Below, one piece after another: positions 28,653-35,792 of a stretch of DNA of 64,000 bases. Position numbers and translations under genes: made by a program. Below the pieces are notes generated by a model. That model searched no databases. It was not told the origin of the DNA and was given only the letters and a program-made list of their open reading frames with translations. Source of the DNA: Billgrantia bachuensis (GTDB lineage Bacteria > Pseudomonadota > Gammaproteobacteria > Pseudomonadales > Halomonadaceae); the NCBI RefSeq assembly GCF_011742165.1, contig NZ_JAAQTO010000053.1:1-64000 (forward strand), given 5' to 3'. Each line of letters begins with the position of its first letter. Position 1 is the stretch's first letter.

Positions 28653-29084
28653 ATGAGCATCAAGAAAACCGGTAGCGCTGTCTGGGAGGGTAGCCTGAAA
28701 GAGGGCAAGGGTCAGGTTTCGACCGAGAGTGGCGCCCTGAAGGATCTGCCCTACAGCTTCGGCAAGCGCTTCGAGGGCGAGCCTGGCTCCAACCCGGAAG
28801 AGCTGATCGGTGCGGCGCACGCCAGCTGCTACTCCATGGCGCTGTCGATGATCATGGGCGAGGCGGGGATGACGCCCGAGCGTATCGCCACCGAGGCCGC
28901 CGTAACCCTCGAACAGGATGCCGGTGGCTTCAGCATCACCAGGATCCATCTCACCACCCGTGTGCGCAGCCCCGGCACCGATGCCACGGCCTTCCAGGGC
29001 GCCGCCGACAAGGCCAAGGAGGGGTGTCCGGTCTCCAAGCTGTTCAAGGCCGAGATCACGCTGGATGCCGCGCTGGAAAACTGA
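28653..29084 (+). CDS. osmC: OsmC-type peroxiredoxin
   Basis: A 143-residue OsmC subfamily protein that reduces organic hydroperoxides. The active-site pair is intact: Cys59 (GAAHASCYSMALS) and Cys125 (KEGCPVSKLF), and the Glu and Arg regions of the fold are recognisable (SNPEELIG). AAGGAG precedes the ATG. The 150-base space to the divergent aldo/keto reductase is AT-rich and should hold both promoters. In Escherichia coli osmC is induced by osmotic stress and stationary phase; nothing here shows that directly. Confidence 0.92.
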   Translation: MSIKKTGSAVWEGSLKEGKGQVSTESGALKDLPYSFGKRFEGEPGSNPEELIGAAHASCYSMALSMIMGEAGMTPERIATEAAVTLEQDAGGFSITRIHLTTRVRSPGTDATAFQGAADKAKEGCPVSKLFKAEITLDAALEN

Positions 29085-29104
29085 GCGACCGTTCGACTTG
29101 CCTG

Positions 29105-29126
29105 GCGGCCACCTTCGGGTGGCCGC
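29105..29126 (+). terminator. UUCG stem-loop after osmC
   Basis: GCGGCCACC-TTCG-GGTGGCCGC, a perfect 9-bp stem with an extra-stable UUCG tetraloop, 20 bases after the osmC stop. The T-tract is weak (GCTTCGTTCTGTC), so termination may be partial. Confidence 0.7.
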
Positions 29127-29177
29127 GCTTCGTTCTGTCTGAGAAAGACGGGGCAGTGCAGCAGTCTTCCAGCAAGC

Positions 29178-29852
29178 CTAGGCTGCGGTGCCGTGCCGCG
29201 CGGCTTCGACCAGGGCACGTATCAGGCGCTGCTGGGGAAGATTGAAGATCAGCCACTCCGGGTGCCACTGCACGCCGATCAGGAACTCGTGGTCGCGCGA
29301 TTCGATGCCCTGAACCAGGCCGTCGCGATCGCGGGCGACGATCTCGATACCATGCCCCGCCTCCTGCACGGCCTGGTGATGCAGGCTGTTGATGCGGCAC
29401 CAGCTCACCTTGAGGATACGGCGTAGTTGGGTGCCGTCCATGATGTCGACCGTCTTGCGCGGTAGTACGGTACGCCGACGCTTGAGCCCTTCATGGGTGG
29501 TATAGATGTCGGGGTCGAGCGTGCCGCCCAGGTGAACGTTGAGCATCTGGGCGCCGCGGCAGATCCCCAGTACGGGCTTGCCTTGGGGAATGAAGCGCTC
29601 CATCAGTTCGAGTTCGAGCTCGTCGCGCTGGGGGTCGAGGCGCACGTCGAGCTGCACCTCGCCGCCATAGAGGTGGGCCTGGATGTCGTCGCCGCCGCCG
29701 ATGATCAAGCCGTCGAGCGCCTCGGGTAGCGGACGGGAAGGGGAAAGGCGAAGCGGCCGGCCGCCGTGTCGCCACACGGCGAACCAATCGAACCACCAGG
29801 CGATACGGCTCTTGTAATCCGACGTGGTGATGCCGATGAGCGGGCGCGTCAT
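29178..29852 (-). CDS. Class I glutamine amidotransferase-like hydrolase (peptidase C26)
   Basis: A 224-residue protein of the gamma-glutamyl hydrolase/PuuD group. Catalytic triad: Cys98 in LGICRGAQMLN, His197 and Glu199 in VQWHPEW. IIGGGDDI near residue 50 is the family oxyanion region. It may cleave gamma-glutamyl amides or supply ammonia. Its ATG at 29852 overlaps the stop of the amidoligase (ATGA), so both proteins are made together. The pairing of an amidoligase with such a hydrolase has been noted in comparative genomics (Iyer and co-workers), where a peptide-amide tailoring role was proposed but not proven. Confidence 0.87.
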   Translation of the reverse strand: MTRPLIGITTSDYKSRIAWWFDWFAVWRHGGRPLRLSPSRPLPEALDGLIIGGGDDIQAHLYGGEVQLDVRLDPQRDELELELMERFIPQGKPVLGICRGAQMLNVHLGGTLDPDIYTTHEGLKRRRTVLPRKTVDIMDGTQLRRILKVSWCRINSLHHQAVQEAGHGIEIVARDRDGLVQGIESRDHEFLIGVQWHPEWLIFNLPQQRLIRALVEAARHGTAA

Positions 29853-30868
29853 GAGGTAGAGCGGACCTCCTTGATCCAGTTCCGCAACCTGCCGACCATG
29901 CGTGTCACGAGCGGCTGCGTGTGCAGGTTGACGTAACGGCCGGCACGTCCGTTGAGCTCCTTGCGGTCGGCTGCGAGGCGCTCCACCGCCACCCAGCGGT
30001 TCCACTCCACCACGGCGCCCCAGCCGCGCTGAGATAGCTGGGCGTTGGGCAAGCGATAGTGGAACGTCGGCCGGGGCTTGACCAAGTTGTTGCGGAACAA
30101 CTCGTCCGGGTAGTCCGGGCAGAGGTGAGCAAACAGCGGGTAGAGGTCCAGCTCGCGGTTGCGCGTGGGGTTGAAGTTGATGTAGTCGGCGATCAGTGTA
30201 TTCAGGTCCGGGGCGTAGTTCGGATCGAGCACCTTGAGTGCATAGTGCTTGGGAAAAGGGTTGGCGTGGGGCAGTACCTCACGCGTGATGTCGATATCGA
30301 TCTCCTTGCGTAGCCAGGCTGCCAGGAGCAGGAAGGCGCGGAAGTGGCGCAGGATGGACTCGGGGGCCAGGTCGGCCACCTCGGGATTGAGGTGCAGGCC
30401 GAAGCCATACAACAGGCTGGCATCGGTGCCCTTGGCACCGTGAGCATGAAGGGCAGCGAACAGGGCGTCGAGCTCGTTCAGCTCGTTCCACGGCACCGGC
30501 GGGCAGACGATCTCGGTCGGTACCAGGCCCGTGACGACATCGCCGATCAGCTCGCGGGTCTTGTTGTGGAAATCCAGGCGCATCTGGTGGCGCTGACGTT
30601 CCCATTCCGTATCGTGCCGCGGCAATGCCTGCAACAACCTGGCATCGGGATGGGCATATTGGGTATCGAGTTCGATGACGAAATCGCCCCAGCGCGTGGC
30701 TTCGACTCGCAGTCGATGGGGGCTGACCAGCTTCAGTTCGCCACCGAACAGGTTGCGTACCAGCTCGCCAGTCTGTTGGGGAGGGAGACCGGCGAACTCG
30801 ATCTCGACGCCAACCCGTCGGGTCCTACCCTGGACATTCAGAGGCTCGGGTGGTGATTGCGGCAGCAT
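29849..30868 (-). CDS. Amidoligase-family protein (glutamine synthetase-like fold)
   Basis: A 339-residue protein of the putative amidoligase family. The N-terminal VGVEIEFAGL strand with paired Glu residues is the expected metal/ATP site; EIVCPPVPW, GFGLHLNPEV and NFNPTRNRELDLYPL are further conserved blocks. Amidoligases of this fold join a carboxylate to an amine with ATP. The substrate is unknown. The ATG at 30868 has AGGA upstream; an in-frame start 105 bases earlier would add a low-quality extension. It is coupled to the hydrolase and divergent from an MscS channel gene. Confidence 0.8.
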   Translation of the reverse strand: MLPQSPPEPLNVQGRTRRVGVEIEFAGLPPQQTGELVRNLFGGELKLVSPHRLRVEATRWGDFVIELDTQYAHPDARLLQALPRHDTEWERQRHQMRLDFHNKTRELIGDVVTGLVPTEIVCPPVPWNELNELDALFAALHAHGAKGTDASLLYGFGLHLNPEVADLAPESILRHFRAFLLLAAWLRKEIDIDITREVLPHANPFPKHYALKVLDPNYAPDLNTLIADYINFNPTRNRELDLYPLFAHLCPDYPDELFRNNLVKPRPTFHYRLPNAQLSQRGWGAVVEWNRWVAVERLAADRKELNGRAGRYVNLHTQPLVTRMVGRLRNWIKEVRSTS

Positions 30869-30996
30869 GAAGGCATCCTGTGCGACTCGAGAGTCTGACG
30901 CCAGCCTAGCACAGTGCGGCGACAAGTCGGCAGGGAGCGCTCCTGACCAACTGCTGTCCCAGCCACATGGCAAACGAAACGAGGGAGTGTCGATCG

Positions 30997-33345
30997 ATGC
31001 CAGGAGCTTTTTCCCAACGCGGTGACATCGGGTGCTGGCGAGTGGCGATTCGCATCGGGTTGATGCTACTCATGCTGATGCCGCTGATGTGGGCTGGCCC
31101 TGGACACGCCCAGCTCTCGTTCGGGGGGCTGGGACAGGGTGAACAGGCCCAGGAGAATGCTCATGACGCCGAGACGTTCCAGCAATCCCTCGACGAAGTG
31201 ATCACCACCCTGGAGGACGATGAACGCCGTGGTGCCCTGCTCGATGAACTGCGTGAGATTCATCAGGCGCAGAGCGTGGCCGCCGATGATTCCATTCAGC
31301 GCCAGGGATTGCTCGGCGCCCTGGCCGAGACGTTCAGCGAGTTGGGCGACCAGGCCGAGGCCGGTGAGTCGCCGATCGACGACTGGCAGCGCCAGTTGGA
31401 GCAGGGCTGGGCGGGGCTCAGCGACTTGGTGGTGGAAACCGGTACCAGCGAGATCCTGCGCTTCTCCATTCAGAGTGCCGTACTGCTGGGCGTCTGGGCC
31501 GGTGCGCTGATCATCCTGATTGCCCTCGGCAGGGTGCTGTTCGTGCGCCAAGAACTGCCTCTCGACCTGCCGCGGGAACCGCGAGGCTGGTTGCTGGCGC
31601 TGCACTTTCTGCGGCGCATGCTGCCCTGGGCGCTCGCTTTCGTGCTGATCATGGGGTTGGTCCAGGTGCTACCGCCGAGTCCCGGGCGCACGCTGGCACT
31701 GATCGTGGCCTACCTGGCGCTGTGCGGCCGCACCCTGTCGGTGGTCGTGGAGTGTGTGGTGTCGGTGTTCACTCGTGGGCATCGCTTCCCCGCCGTATTG
31801 ATACTGCAGCAGCGGGGGCTGCGCCTGCTGTTTGCGATCGGAGCACTGATTGCACTCGGCGATGCGCTCAATGCCGCGCGGCTCTCCTTGATCGTGGGGG
31901 AAGAGCCTGCGGCGCTGGCCTCGGTGCTGGCCAACGTGCTGGCGGCCCTGCTCAGCATTCGCTTTATCTTCAAGTTCAAGCGTCCGATCAAGCATCTGAT
32001 CCGCAACCGTTCCTGGCGTGTACGCCGAGAAGGCGGTACCGGCATCGAGCTGGCGCGCATCGTCGGTGGGCTCTGGCACGTACCGGCGCTGCTCATCGTC
32101 GTGGTCTCGCTGCTGGCGATCTTCGTTACCGTAGGGGATGTGGGAGCCGCGCTGGCACGCTCGATCATTTCGGCGGCTCTGCTGGTACTGACGCTGGTGA
32201 TCACCGGCCTGATCCAGCGCCACAACGAGCGACACAGCAAGCGCCGCCGAATCAGCGAGTATCGCCGCCGCCTCGAGCGCTTCGGCTATGCGCTCTCGCA
32301 TATGGTGGCGTGGATCGTCTTTGCCGAGCTGTCGCTGCAGGTGTGGGGCGGCTCGCTGTTCGGCCTTGGGCGCGAAGGCGTCGCCGGGGTACGTATCGGC
32401 CAGGCGCTGTTGGCACTGGGGTTCACGGTGCTGCTGGCCTGGCTGGCGTGGATCTTCGCCGATACCGCCATTCAACGCGCTCTGGTCTCTTCCGCTCGTT
32501 CCCGGGGGCGGCGCGTCAATCAGGCCCGTGCCCAGACCATCACGCCGATGATTCGCAACGTCATGTTTGCCACCATCGTGATCATCGCCGCCATCGTTGG
32601 CCTGGCCAACCTGGGGGTCAACGTCACGCCGCTGCTGGCTGGCGCCGGTGTCATCGGGCTGGCCGTGGGCTTCGGTGCCCAGACCCTGGTGCAGGACCTG
32701 ATCACCGGCATCTTCATCATCGTCGAGGATTCGCTGGCCGTGGACGACTTCGTCCAGATCAACGGCCACATGGGCACCGTCGAGGGGTTGACCCTGCGCA
32801 CCGTGCGCTTGCGCGACCTCGATGGCATCCTGCACATCATCACCTTCAGCGCCATCCAGTCGATCCACAACATGTCGCGGCACTTCGGGATCGCGCTGAT
32901 GCGTATTCGCATACCGCATACCATGAAGATCGACGCTGCCATCTCCCTGATGCAGGAGACCGCGCAGGAGTTGCGCCAGGATCCGATGATGCGCCATCAC
33001 ATCTGGTCGCCGCTGGAGATGCAAGGCGTCGATCGCTTCGACGAAGGTGCCGCCGTGCTGCGCATGCGCTTTCGCACCGCGCCGGTCATGCAATGGGACG
33101 TGGCGCGTGCCTTCAATTTGCTGCTCAAGCAGCGCATGGAGGCCCAGGGCCTCGACCTCGGCATGCCGCGTCTGAGCGTGAGCATGGAGGGCCAGCCGGG
33201 CGATACCATCGCAAGCGAGGAGCCGAAAGGCGGCGGCGATACGGCACTCCCACGCGATGCCAAGGGGCGAGCCCCCGGGGAGGCCGGTATGGCCGACCCC
33301 GAAGGGTCGACCAACCCGCAGCGCGCCTCGCCGGACTCTTCTTGA
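30997..33345 (+). CDS. Large mechanosensitive channel, MscS family
   Basis: A 782-residue membrane protein. A hydrophobic leader (LMLLMLMPLMW, cleavage near GHAQ) is followed by a periplasmic region of about 140 residues with Glu/Gln-rich helices, then about eight to ten membrane segments and the MscS core near residues 535-640. The pore helix region reads PLLAGAGVIGLAVGFGAQTLVQDLITG, followed by FIIVEDSLAVDDFVQING and the beta-domain. It should open under membrane tension and release solutes on hypo-osmotic shock. The ATG at 30997 with GAGGGAG upstream gives a proper leader; an ATG at 30967 is possible. Probably cotranscribed with the next gene. Confidence 0.88.
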   Translation: MPGAFSQRGDIGCWRVAIRIGLMLLMLMPLMWAGPGHAQLSFGGLGQGEQAQENAHDAETFQQSLDEVITTLEDDERRGALLDELREIHQAQSVAADDSIQRQGLLGALAETFSELGDQAEAGESPIDDWQRQLEQGWAGLSDLVVETGTSEILRFSIQSAVLLGVWAGALIILIALGRVLFVRQELPLDLPREPRGWLLALHFLRRMLPWALAFVLIMGLVQVLPPSPGRTLALIVAYLALCGRTLSVVVECVVSVFTRGHRFPAVLILQQRGLRLLFAIGALIALGDALNAARLSLIVGEEPAALASVLANVLAALLSIRFIFKFKRPIKHLIRNRSWRVRREGGTGIELARIVGGLWHVPALLIVVVSLLAIFVTVGDVGAALARSIISAALLVLTLVITGLIQRHNERHSKRRRISEYRRRLERFGYALSHMVAWIVFAELSLQVWGGSLFGLGREGVAGVRIGQALLALGFTVLLAWLAWIFADTAIQRALVSSARSRGRRVNQARAQTITPMIRNVMFATIVIIAAIVGLANLGVNVTPLLAGAGVIGLAVGFGAQTLVQDLITGIFIIVEDSLAVDDFVQINGHMGTVEGLTLRTVRLRDLDGILHIITFSAIQSIHNMSRHFGIALMRIRIPHTMKIDAAISLMQETAQELRQDPMMRHHIWSPLEMQGVDRFDEGAAVLRMRFRTAPVMQWDVARAFNLLLKQRMEAQGLDLGMPRLSVSMEGQPGDTIASEEPKGGGDTALPRDAKGRAPGEAGMADPEGSTNPQRASPDSS

Positions 33346-33425
33346 TGGCAAGTGGGCCGACATTCTTCGTACTATGAAAAACATTCGGCCTGTCAATGGC
33401 CTCTGGTACAAGGAGCTGCGCCGAC

Positions 33426-34937
33426 GTGATTACCGTCGAACGCAAGGATAGCTTCCATCTCAAGATTTCCCGCGTGCTGCAGGAGGAAACGTCGCATCGG
33501 TTGGATGTCTTCTTGTTCGTGCCGGGGGAGCTTGGCCTCAACGAGCATGTCATATCCGAGGATGCCTTTTACTACAGCTCGATCCACGTCAAGCGGACCT
33601 ACTACAGCGACAAGCACCACTTGCCGTTGGTGCTCAGCCGGCTGGCCAGCCGTGGCCGACTCAGCACCGAGCAGTACCGCCTGAGCTTGAGCCTCTACGC
33701 CTACCAGTACGTGGTGGCGCTGGAGCGGGCGACCCAATCGCTGCTGGATACCGCTAGACGCGTGCAACAGGCCGAGCGCCACGCCGAGACCGCCGAACGA
33801 GCCGAGGCGCCAGGCGGCGAGCCGAACGAGACAGGCGCCGGGGGCCAGGCACAGGAGCGCATCGTGGCGGCCGGTTTGCAGGAACGCCTCGAGGAGCTGT
33901 GCGAGCTGGCTCAGGGCATTCTGCGCCGCTTGCGTCGCAACCAGCCGAGCGACGACGGACTGCTCAAGTATTACGCCCATATCGACAACTACCTGTCGTG
34001 GTTCACCGAGCAGCGCCTGCTGGCGCTGGTGGCCCATCTGCCGCGAGGGCGCGACTACCGCACCATCCGTGAGCGCTTGCTGGAGATTTGCCTGGCCGAG
34101 AGCGAGCATCGCGAGCAGGCGGAGTACAACGCCAGCCGGGTGGTTCGCGACCCCACACGCATGTCCAACAAGATGCGTCTGCTGCGACGCCTCATCGAGT
34201 ATCCCGTCACCCTCAAGCAGCAGACCCAGGAGCTGGGAGGCGCCGAACAGAAGGCCGTCAAGGGACTGGCCACCGGCGTGGTGATGGTCTTCGTCTCGCT
34301 GGGGCTGCTCCAGGCTCGCGATACCGTGGGCAACATCACCGCGCTGTTCGTGCTGGCCATGGCGGTGCTGTATGCCATGCGCGAGGTGTTCAAGGACGAC
34401 TTGCGCAACACCCTGTGGCGCTGGCTGCGCAAGGGCCGGCCCAAGTGGCGGCGCCAATATTTCGATGCCACCAGCAACAATCCGGTGGGACGCCAGCTCG
34501 AGTGGTTCGACTACAAGCGCTTCGGCAAGCTCGACGAGCAGATCAAGCGCGTGCGCAAGCGCAACGTGGCACAGCGCGAGGAGGTGGTGCTGCACTACCG
34601 TTCCAGCTCGCGCATGTCGCCCACACGCTTTCTCAGTGGCTACGAGAAGACCCGCGAGACGCTCTCGCTCGACCTGTCTCAACTGACCCGGCTGATGGAC
34701 AAGGGCAGCCACCGTGTCTATCGGCTGAAGGAGGGGCAGGTCTCGCGGGAGTCGGTCGAGAAGCGGCATCTGCTCAACCTGGTAGTGCGCGAGGAGGTCG
34801 CCAATGCCGAGCCGATCCTGCAGCGCTGGAAGATCGTCATGAGCCGTTCGCGGATCGTCGACGTGGTCAAGGTGCATCAGGAAGGCGGCAAGCCCGAAGA
34901 GGGGGAAGCGGAGCAGGACGAGACGCCCGTCGTGTAA
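33426..34937 (+). CDS. Uncharacterised membrane protein, about 503 residues
   Basis: I do not recognise this family. The start is taken as the GTG at 33426 with AAGGAG ten bases upstream; an ATG at 33396 lacks a ribosome site. Residues 1-280 are soluble, charged and partly coiled coil (repeated Gln, Glu and Arg around 105-170), then two adjacent hydrophobic segments follow (LATGVVMVFVSLGLLQ and ALFVLAMAVLYAM), then a basic region rich in Arg and Lys (WLRKGRPKWRR) and a 160-residue soluble tail ending in acidic residues. The pattern suggests a two-helix inner-membrane protein with both large domains in the cytoplasm. It follows the MscS gene by 80 bases on the same strand. Confidence 0.75.
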   Translation: MITVERKDSFHLKISRVLQEETSHRLDVFLFVPGELGLNEHVISEDAFYYSSIHVKRTYYSDKHHLPLVLSRLASRGRLSTEQYRLSLSLYAYQYVVALERATQSLLDTARRVQQAERHAETAERAEAPGGEPNETGAGGQAQERIVAAGLQERLEELCELAQGILRRLRRNQPSDDGLLKYYAHIDNYLSWFTEQRLLALVAHLPRGRDYRTIRERLLEICLAESEHREQAEYNASRVVRDPTRMSNKMRLLRRLIEYPVTLKQQTQELGGAEQKAVKGLATGVVMVFVSLGLLQARDTVGNITALFVLAMAVLYAMREVFKDDLRNTLWRWLRKGRPKWRRQYFDATSNNPVGRQLEWFDYKRFGKLDEQIKRVRKRNVAQREEVVLHYRSSSRMSPTRFLSGYEKTRETLSLDLSQLTRLMDKGSHRVYRLKEGQVSRESVEKRHLLNLVVREEVANAEPILQRWKIVMSRSRIVDVVKVHQEGGKPEEGEAEQDETPVV

Positions 34938-34955
34938 CGCCACGTGGCTTCGATG

Positions 34956-34969
34956 TTGTTCCAGGTCAA
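34956..34969. promoter_or_regulatory. Anr/Fnr-like box upstream of the CBS-BON gene
   Basis: TTGTTCCAGGTCAA matches the Anr/Fnr consensus TTGAT-N4-ATCAA at eight of ten defined bases. It lies 125 bases before the CBS-BON start. A near-identical 13-base string occurs before ackA at 42686. Inferred. Confidence 0.4.
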
Positions 34970-35093
34970 GTCGGCTGTCGGCTCGGTTTGCTTGTGTCAA
35001 GACAGGCGGCGAATTGTGGCTTACGCCAAGTCGAACTAGATTTCAAGGTAGGTCGGCCGCAACCCTTACCGCTCCCTTAATGGAGGTGTTGCC

Positions 35094-35792
35094 ATGCAAG
35101 CTGCTGATGTCATGACTGCCAAAGTCATAACCGTATCGCCCGACGCCGACGTTCGTGAAATCGCTCGCCTCCTGCTCGAGAACAATATCAGCGCCGTACC
35201 CGTCGTGGACGATGGCGACAAGGTGCTGGGTATCGTCAGCGAAGGCGACCTGATGCGCCGGGTCGAGAACGATGAGGGACGGCAAAAGTCCTGGTGGCTG
35301 CGGGTCTTCGCGGGCGGCAGCAGTGCCAGCGAATACGTCAAGTCGCATGCGCGGCGGGCACGCGAGATCATGACGCCCGATCCGATCACTATCGAGGAGA
35401 ACGAGCCGCTTCATCGCGTGGCCAAGTTGCTCGAGAAGCACCATATCAAGCGCGTGCCGGTGGTGCGGAATGGCAAGCTGGTAGGCATCGTCAGCCGCGC
35501 CAATCTGCTGCGAGGCTTCTCGGCCACGGCGCCCGATACGGAGACGCCGGTGACGGCCGACGATCGTGAGATCCGTGATGCCATTCTCAAGGAGGTGGAC
35601 GAGAATACCGGCGTCTGGGTCGATCGTATCAACGTCATCGTCACCGAGGGTGTGGTGCAGGTCTGGGGGCTGGTGGAGAGCCAGGAAGAGAAGAAGGCCG
35701 TCCAGGTTGCCGCCGAGAACACGCCTGGCGTGAAATCCGTGGAGAACAATCTCGGCATGATGCCGCGTGGTGTAGGGGGCTACTGGACCTGA
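35094..35792 (+). CDS. CBS-pair and BON domain protein
   Basis: A 232-residue cytoplasmic protein. Two CBS domains (about 5-60 and 90-150; each with a VPVV-D/N-GIVS pattern) are followed by a BON domain (about 160-225; INVIVTEGVVQVWG and NTPGVKSVENNL). CBS pairs usually bind adenosyl nucleotides and sense energy state, and BON domains bind lipid or membrane surfaces. Similar proteins in Pseudomonas are induced at low oxygen, consistent with the upstream Anr-like box. TGGAGG precedes the ATG. Confidence 0.9.
   Translation: MQAADVMTAKVITVSPDADVREIARLLLENNISAVPVVDDGDKVLGIVSEGDLMRRVENDEGRQKSWWLRVFAGGSSASEYVKSHARRAREIMTPDPITIEENEPLHRVAKLLEKHHIKRVPVVRNGKLVGIVSRANLLRGFSATAPDTETPVTADDREIRDAILKEVDENTGVWVDRINVIVTEGVVQVWGLVESQEEKKAVQVAAENTPGVKSVENNLGMMPRGVGGYWT

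Follow-up and report, generated by a model that had tools for sequence, protein, structure and literature searches.

A stretch of 64,000 nucleotides of Billgrantia bachuensis DNA (positions 1 to 64,000 of contig NZ_JAAQTO010000053.1; hereafter the window), from a source genome of 4.7 Mb in 80 contigs, contains a gene for an Amidoligase_2 protein followed by one for a class-I amidotransferase of the peptidase C26 family and, divergent from these two, a large MscS-type channel gene and a gene for an uncharacterised membrane protein of 513 amino acids (aa). The real unit among these genes is the amidoligase with its C26 partner, and this pair, with its conserved putative catalytic residues, is a stable two-enzyme unit across the sampled Pseudomonadota. 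At roughly even odds (a probability of about 0.5), we regard the two proteins as parts of a single glutamine-dependent amidotransferase, either its two subunits or two closely linked steps. Channel and 513-aa protein are probably bystanders of the pair, which removes a misleading lead.

Glutamine synthetase-like amidoligases were reportedly surveyed by Iyer et al. in 2009, and their association with class-I amidotransferases is said to have been proposed there already; to our knowledge, this kind of pair was predicted in that year. The amidoligases of that survey belong to the same Pfam family as the present one and have the same glutamine synthetase-like catalytic core, as predicted here. The family-wide counts given below, the single C26 clade and the VTT-domain gene found as a third gene in some loci are observations of the present analysis.

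Inheritance and coupling of the two genes

The same 151 genomes of the family Halomonadaceae were searched with each of the four genes and the coordinates of the matches compared. At the limits used, amidoligase and C26 genes are present in an identical set of 113 genomes, and in 112 of these they are adjacent and co-directional. In the remaining genome (G102) the two genes are found on different contigs, the amidoligase match stopping 302 bases short of a contig end and that of C26 reaching right to the end of its own; because both lie at contig ends, this pair was counted as split by the assembly. In the window itself the amidoligase stop and the hydrolase start share an ATGA (29852-29849), as the earlier note on this DNA had read, and its view of the two genes as one unit is borne out by their joint occurrence in these 113 genomes, by the loci outside the family and by the grouping of the paired C26 proteins in a single clade.

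Outside the family, 53 loci were read: a class sample supplied 11 of them, a phylum sample 7, two order samples together 28, and plasmid records the other 7. The class sample had 13 amidoligase genomes, of which these 11 and the window were read, while G349 (a weak match in a 1056-aa frame with no C26 match) was left out of the wide reading; the phylum loci represent 7 of 9 non-family amidoligase genomes and the plasmid loci 7 of 11 records. A C26 gene follows the amidoligase in 46 of the 53 loci (class 11/11, phylum 5/7, two orders 27/28, plasmid records 3/7). A manual count over 84 rows gave these 46 distinct pairs, L114-L124 and L156-L182 being duplicates of wider loci. With starts chosen mechanically, the two frames overlap in 37 pairs, the shared stretch being 4 base pairs (bp) long in 20 of them, 8-46 bp in 16 and a single base pair in one, and lie 1-37 bp apart in the other 9. 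Spacing is looser within the family, where 33 of 68 rows show neither an overlap nor a gap of 0-40 bp. The halophilic laboratory strain Vreelandella boliviensis LC1 also has the pair (L098). The tight coupling of the pair is not chance, and the ligase and glutaminase genes are co-inherited and coupled with 7 exceptions among the 53 loci, to which we return below.

The history of the two proteins points in the same direction. In a C26 tree of 73 proteins, the 53 that adjoin an amidoligase are split from 20 unpaired ones (20 of the 24 matches listed) by a branch with support 100/99. A second C26 protein of the source genome, encoded on another contig (G000:C78), groups with the unpaired proteins, as does one (L213) whose gene adjoins glutamine synthetase-like, short-chain dehydrogenase/reductase (SDR) and aldehyde dehydrogenase genes, labelled by eye. 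On this phylogenetic evidence, the C26 partner of the amidoligase appears to be a specific one. The amidoligase tree (60 rows) is broadly like the C26 tree, and the distances in the two are correlated (r 0.71 over 53 pairs, with none of 999 permutations as high), a correlation that shared descent alone would also give. More telling is G054 (L033), from an outlying genus of the family: amidoligase and C26 protein each fall beside one distant locus, L139 (support 100/99 for the amidoligase, 100/92 for the C26 protein), and since they do so together, the pair appears to have moved as one, transferred from another lineage.

Several points weigh against so close a partnership. The two trees conflict at some deep rows, for example L146, and in 7 of the 53 non-family loci the amidoligase has no adjacent C26 gene. 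Six of these solo amidoligases (L144, L145, L147, L148, L149 and L152) form one branch, of which four loci sit on alphaproteobacterial plasmids, while the seventh, L183, is isolated among relatives that have the pair. With solo enzymes of this kind, a glutaminase encoded in cis cannot be a general requirement, although no search for one in trans was made in their genomes. Fusions of the two genes were not noticed, no systematic search for them having been made; a 619-aa open reading frame (ORF) of L129 was considered as one and rejected, since it runs in the C26 frame and the amidoligase there has its own open frame of 346 aa.

Enzyme families and predicted chemistry

The amidoligase belongs to Amidoligase_2 (PF12224; 195.4 bits, E 1.9e-57, cut-off 22), its only Pfam match at 0.001, and its partner to Peptidase_C26 (PF07722; 157.8 bits, E 4.5e-46, cut-off 20.5). 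Among 36 diverse amidoligases including that of the window, the invariant residues include E23, E25, D69, E120 and N162 as well as R237, D242, R267, H271 and R273 (numbering of alignment A1), so that the acidic GxExE-type glutamates E23 and E25 are kept in 36 of 36 homologues. In the C26 protein, C99, H198 and E200 (numbering of alignment A2), which we take to be the catalytic triad of the family, are invariant in all 27 paired proteins compared, the window included. Judging from these residues, both enzymes look active. PHROGs, in which the C26 protein was the only one of the four proteins to find a match, ranked a glutamine amidotransferase family first; PADLOC gave no match for any of the four.

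The input to the structure predictions was, in addition to the window, 49 of the 78 and 45 of the 60 locus rows that were usable. The predicted model of the amidoligase (predicted local distance difference test score, pLDDT, 80.9; predicted template modelling score, pTM, 0.78) was aligned by VIA-align with several glutamine synthetases at a Z of 10.8 over 185-196 residues, the root-mean-square deviation of the top five matches being 3.3-3.6, and Foldseek likewise placed glutamine synthetases at the top, with YbdK close behind. The computed match covers about residue 113 to about residue 363 of human glutamine synthetase. On the predicted model, the amidoligase thus has a glutamine synthetase-like catalytic fold with the ExE motif. 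Because sequence and profile searches of the PDB gave nothing relevant (no match up to E 1 with the single sequence; weak, unrelated rows with the profile, the best at E 0.04), the evidence for this fold is that of the predicted model. Two features of the structural comparison count against the amidotransferase reading: none of the Foldseek matches had an E below 0.001, and among them stands YbdK, presumably a glutamine synthetase-fold enzyme like a gamma-glutamate-cysteine ligase, so that the amine could be an amino compound and not ammonia itself.

The N-terminal domain of glutamine synthetase, which contributes to its ammonium site, has no aligned counterpart in the model, and it is a natural inference that the amidoligase would need a separate source of ammonia. 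If the pair is an amidotransferase, the C26 protein would hydrolyse glutamine by its Cys-His-Glu triad and free ammonia, the amidoligase would activate a carboxylate with ATP to give an acyl phosphate, and the same enzyme would then join the ammonia to the activated acid, so that the product would be the primary amide of some acid; the genes for the channel and for the 513-aa protein would lie in transcription units next to that of the pair. The activities named in the earlier note, amide formation on one side and hydrolysis of glutamine or a gamma-glutamyl amide on the other, are reasonable in the light of the conserved residues and the glutamine synthetase-like model. The fold and the dedicated C26 clade turn an "amidoligase of unknown function" into a testable case, with two questions to be put to it: which acid is amidated, and does the ammonia come from the partner?

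Glutamine synthetase-fold ligases also make gamma-glutamyl amines, and PuuA and PuuD combine such a ligase with a C26 hydrolase in the gamma-glutamyl-putrescine pathway. The main alternative, possible if doubtful, is a couple of this kind, in which the amidoligase would put glutamate on an amine and the C26 protein would later remove it, in the service of amine use or detoxification. The presence of a glutamine synthetase-fold ligase and a C26 hydrolase together is common to both systems, and the best named NCBIfam matches of the C26 protein are gamma-glutamyl-GABA hydrolase (PuuD, NF008471; GABA, gamma-aminobutyric acid), at 85 bits, and gamma-glutamyl-CDP-amidate hydrolase (NF045546), at 42.7 bits; both scores, however, lie far under the respective cut-offs of 266 and 250. 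The nearest solved structures by sequence are Lin1909 and then PuuD (6vtv); PuuD hydrolyses gamma-glutamyl-GABA and does not donate ammonia, and its place as second-closest solved relative is a further point against an amidotransferase. So is the layout of L146, on a Rhodobacteraceae plasmid (5299-8613), where the amidoligase gene is preceded, at a distance of about 150 bp and in the same orientation, by a gene for an aldehyde dehydrogenase, with transporter genes nearby, which would fit an amine-use pathway. Against the PuuA/PuuD analogy, the paired C26 proteins form a clade apart from the 20 unpaired ones, and it is among the latter that the second C26 protein of the source genome falls, together with L213 beside its SDR and dehydrogenase genes. 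Moreover, two opposed enzymes encoded by overlapping genes would need an enzyme to process the intermediate between them. No PuuB- or PuuC-like gene lies beside the pair in this window, and in the clustering of neighbours across families, with labels given by eye, no enzyme for processing a gamma-glutamyl intermediate stood out (the clusters were built from overlapping ORFs in all frames, and some are antisense shadows).

For an amidotransferase, the best functional analogue is MurT/GatD, the lipid II amidotransferase of Gram-positive bacteria, which the accessible text of PMC3267633 describes as a ligase and a glutamine amidotransferase encoded in a two-gene operon, the Staphylococcus aureus genes being 4 bp apart. 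The two systems share this two-gene organisation of ligase and glutamine amidotransferase. They differ in their building blocks: MurT is Mur-ligase-like and GatD CobB/CobQ-like, in place of the glutamine synthetase fold and C26 family found here, and the amidoligase has no Mur-ligase domains, Amidoligase_2 being its one Pfam match and glutamine synthetases the matches of its model.

An envelope component as the target of the pair, which would account for its position beside membrane transport genes, is in our view unlikely. Immediately after the pair, 7 of the 53 non-family loci, from four GTDB families (Table 1), have a gene for a VTT-domain (YqaA-like) membrane protein, and a different, TVP38-like VTT gene precedes the pair in L135; VTT gene and pair are possibly an older three-gene operon. 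On the other side, 45 of the 53 loci have no VTT neighbour, and no VTT homologue was found at 1e-4 in 113 loci searched, mostly of the family. The counts for VTT, transporter and dehydrogenase neighbours stand here without a chance expectation. Phage modules with an amidoligase are described, in the accessible part of one source, as putatively peptidoglycan-modifying (PMC11945000), and the accessible part of another lists amidoligase and glutamine amidotransferase among phage metabolic genes (PMC10945688). These phage proteins are not close relatives, however: tblastn gave no match to the amidoligase in phages, and of 28 viral stretches that fit a sequence pattern none was confirmed as an amidoligase relative in viral contigs. 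The analogy with MurT/GatD suggests a more specific form of this idea, less likely again, in which a Gram-negative envelope amidotransferase built from a glutamine synthetase catalytic half and a C26 protein would amidate a cell-wall or lipid-carrier carboxylate, the VTT protein handling the lipid-linked product. If true, it would be a further architecture for amidation of the cell-wall type.

A formate/nitrite-transporter-like gene was also seen near the pair, by eye in family f163 (L128:5686-6546) and by annotation on a Dinoroseobacter shibae plasmid (L151:4862-5701).

The MscS channel as a neighbour

The four ORFs placed by the earlier note all exist, with refined coordinates (Table 1), and it had taken them as one unit, in which the pair would make a small amide and the MscS channel and membrane protein would control its release. 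Such a unit is very improbable, and the sequence comparisons brought no tie to membrane tension or solute release to light. The channel protein belongs to the MS_channel_2nd family (PF00924; 56.7 bits, cut-off 20.2), scores 168.7 bits against the PRK11465 equivalog (NF008542), whose cut-off is 596, and has 9go3 and 7a46 as relatives in the PDB. Its gene is a divergent neighbour of the pair (within 3.5 kilobases, kb) in 69 of the 113 family genomes, always in the same orientation (69/69), and this adjacency, which speaks for a link, is seen in 10 of the 14 genera with the amidoligase and is absent in the other four. The remaining 44 genomes lack it, and in 41 of these an MscS match lies at another place.

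OsmC, used as a control gene without an evident tie to the pair, is linked to it about as well: at most 5.5 kb separate OsmC and amidoligase in 78 of the 113 genomes, and at most 1.8 kb in 47. The distance cut-offs differ and were our own choice (1.8 and 5.5 kb for OsmC, 3.5 kb for MscS), and by them MscS is the somewhat closer neighbour and OsmC the more widespread one. In favour of the channel, genus g11 keeps MscS in 24 of 24 amidoligase genomes where OsmC is no longer near. On the whole, the linkage of MscS and the pair looks like ordinary block synteny.

In the roughly 5-15 kb examined outside the family by BLAST and profile search, 44 of the 46 paired loci have no MscS-type gene, and the profile search found one in L127 and L206 alone among the 53 loci, both of family f43. 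The occurrence of the pair without channel genes in most relatives, which the earlier note had named as the sign of an accidental neighbourhood, thus largely holds outside the family; within it, MscS adjoins the pair in the majority of genomes given above. In L127 (2887-8198) and L206, MscK-type channel and mutH-like genes lie upstream of the pair, the mutH-like gene separating the channel gene from it, with a further distance of 2.4 kb in L206. A link in family f43 was rejected as coincidence, two of its seven loci (L127, L205-L210) showing the arrangement with the mutH-like gene intervening. The MscK-type gene of L127, recognised by Pfam, had escaped BLAST with the MscS protein of the window, and the search was repeated with a profile including it.

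The shared promoter region of about 130 bases proposed in the earlier note stands as a matter of geometry. The divergent gap between amidoligase and MscS is 98 bp counting from the first MscS ATG; with codon 12 as the start of translation it would be about 131 bp, in line with the figure of the earlier note. A consensus scan of 28900-35200 gave no sigma-70-like site, where shuffled sequences had 1.1 on average, a result that says little either way, and because it gave none, "shared promoter region" is a geometric statement only. The literature searched, which covered few subscription journals, contained nothing combining an amidoligase with MscS or with Halomonas. A 2025 study of Pseudomonas retropepsins (PMC12239564) connects hypo-osmotic stress with another system, one that includes an ATP-grasp protein, and as far as its accessible text goes it does not concern the present genes.

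The 513-aa protein and feature coordinates

The fourth gene follows the pair even less closely, and the expectation that all four would stay together in relatives failed. It was found in 67 of the 151 family genomes, 46 of them among the 113 with the amidoligase; in 42 of these 46, no more than 20 kb separate the two genes. MscS is at most 12 kb away from it in 45 of the 46, which would favour a joint unit, but at most 300 bp away in only 11 of the 113. The genes that intervene in the loci read, some on the opposite strand, are a DnaJ-domain gene with a small opposite-strand neighbour, or ThuA and LacI-type genes, the last label being our own reading. Three of the 45, in genus g20, keep the gene within 12 kb of MscS with the pair elsewhere, so that some linkage of MscS and the 513-aa gene is independent of the pair; in the 21 family genomes that have the gene without an amidoligase, it is never near MscS.

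At the limits used, Pfam, NCBIfam, PHROGs and PADLOC gave no match to the protein. Its closest named relatives (80 of 98 relatives kept) are from Billgrantia and Halomonas species, and the family occurs also in Aliivibrio, Salinivibrio and Zobellella (L107-L113; L153), where the other window genes were not found beside it or the annotated neighbours differ. Many residues are invariant, and a hydrophobic stretch can be seen by eye in mid-protein. Its model is weak (pLDDT 69, pTM 0.50), and no fold is claimed for it: the matches are helical bundles with Z up to 14, which may reflect a common arrangement only, as the tool itself warns. Comparison of relatives places the start of most orthologues at codon 11 of the ORF, and since most begin there, the probable start is the GTG listed in Table 1.

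Table 1. Coordinates of the features in the window and of the VTT genes that follow the pair in other loci (locus positions are preceded by the locus name).
Feature	Position	Strand	Remarks
C26 / class-I amidotransferase gene	29178-29852	minus	224 aa; PF07722 Pfam match
Amidoligase_2 (PF12224), glutamine synthetase-like amide ligase	29849-30868	minus	339 aa; Pfam match
ATGA overlap of C26 gene start and amidoligase stop	29849-29852	minus	read from sequence
Large MscS-type channel gene	30967-33345	plus	MS_channel_2nd match; judged outside the unit
Uncharacterised protein ORF	33396-34937	plus	513 aa; judged outside the unit
Uncharacterised protein, probable GTG start	33426-34937	plus	503 aa
VTT gene	L126:8197-8622		assigned by Pfam
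VTT gene	L130:6437-6844		
VTT gene	L132:8927-9331		
VTT gene	L133:4239-4655		
VTT gene	L184:6482-6877		
VTT gene	L185:6879-7274		
VTT gene	L192:6507-6914		

Two observations on the surroundings of these genes may be added. In L014 (7898-9419) and L021 (9089-10354), a DnaJ-domain gene, so labelled by Pfam in the former and by eye in the latter, lies with a small partner gene downstream of MscS on the opposite strand. In one genome of genus g9 (L017:12426-16018), the 513-aa gene has beside it a DUF1190 gene (44.5 bits) and a GSP_synth gene (479 bits), the latter glutathionylspermidine-synthase-like.

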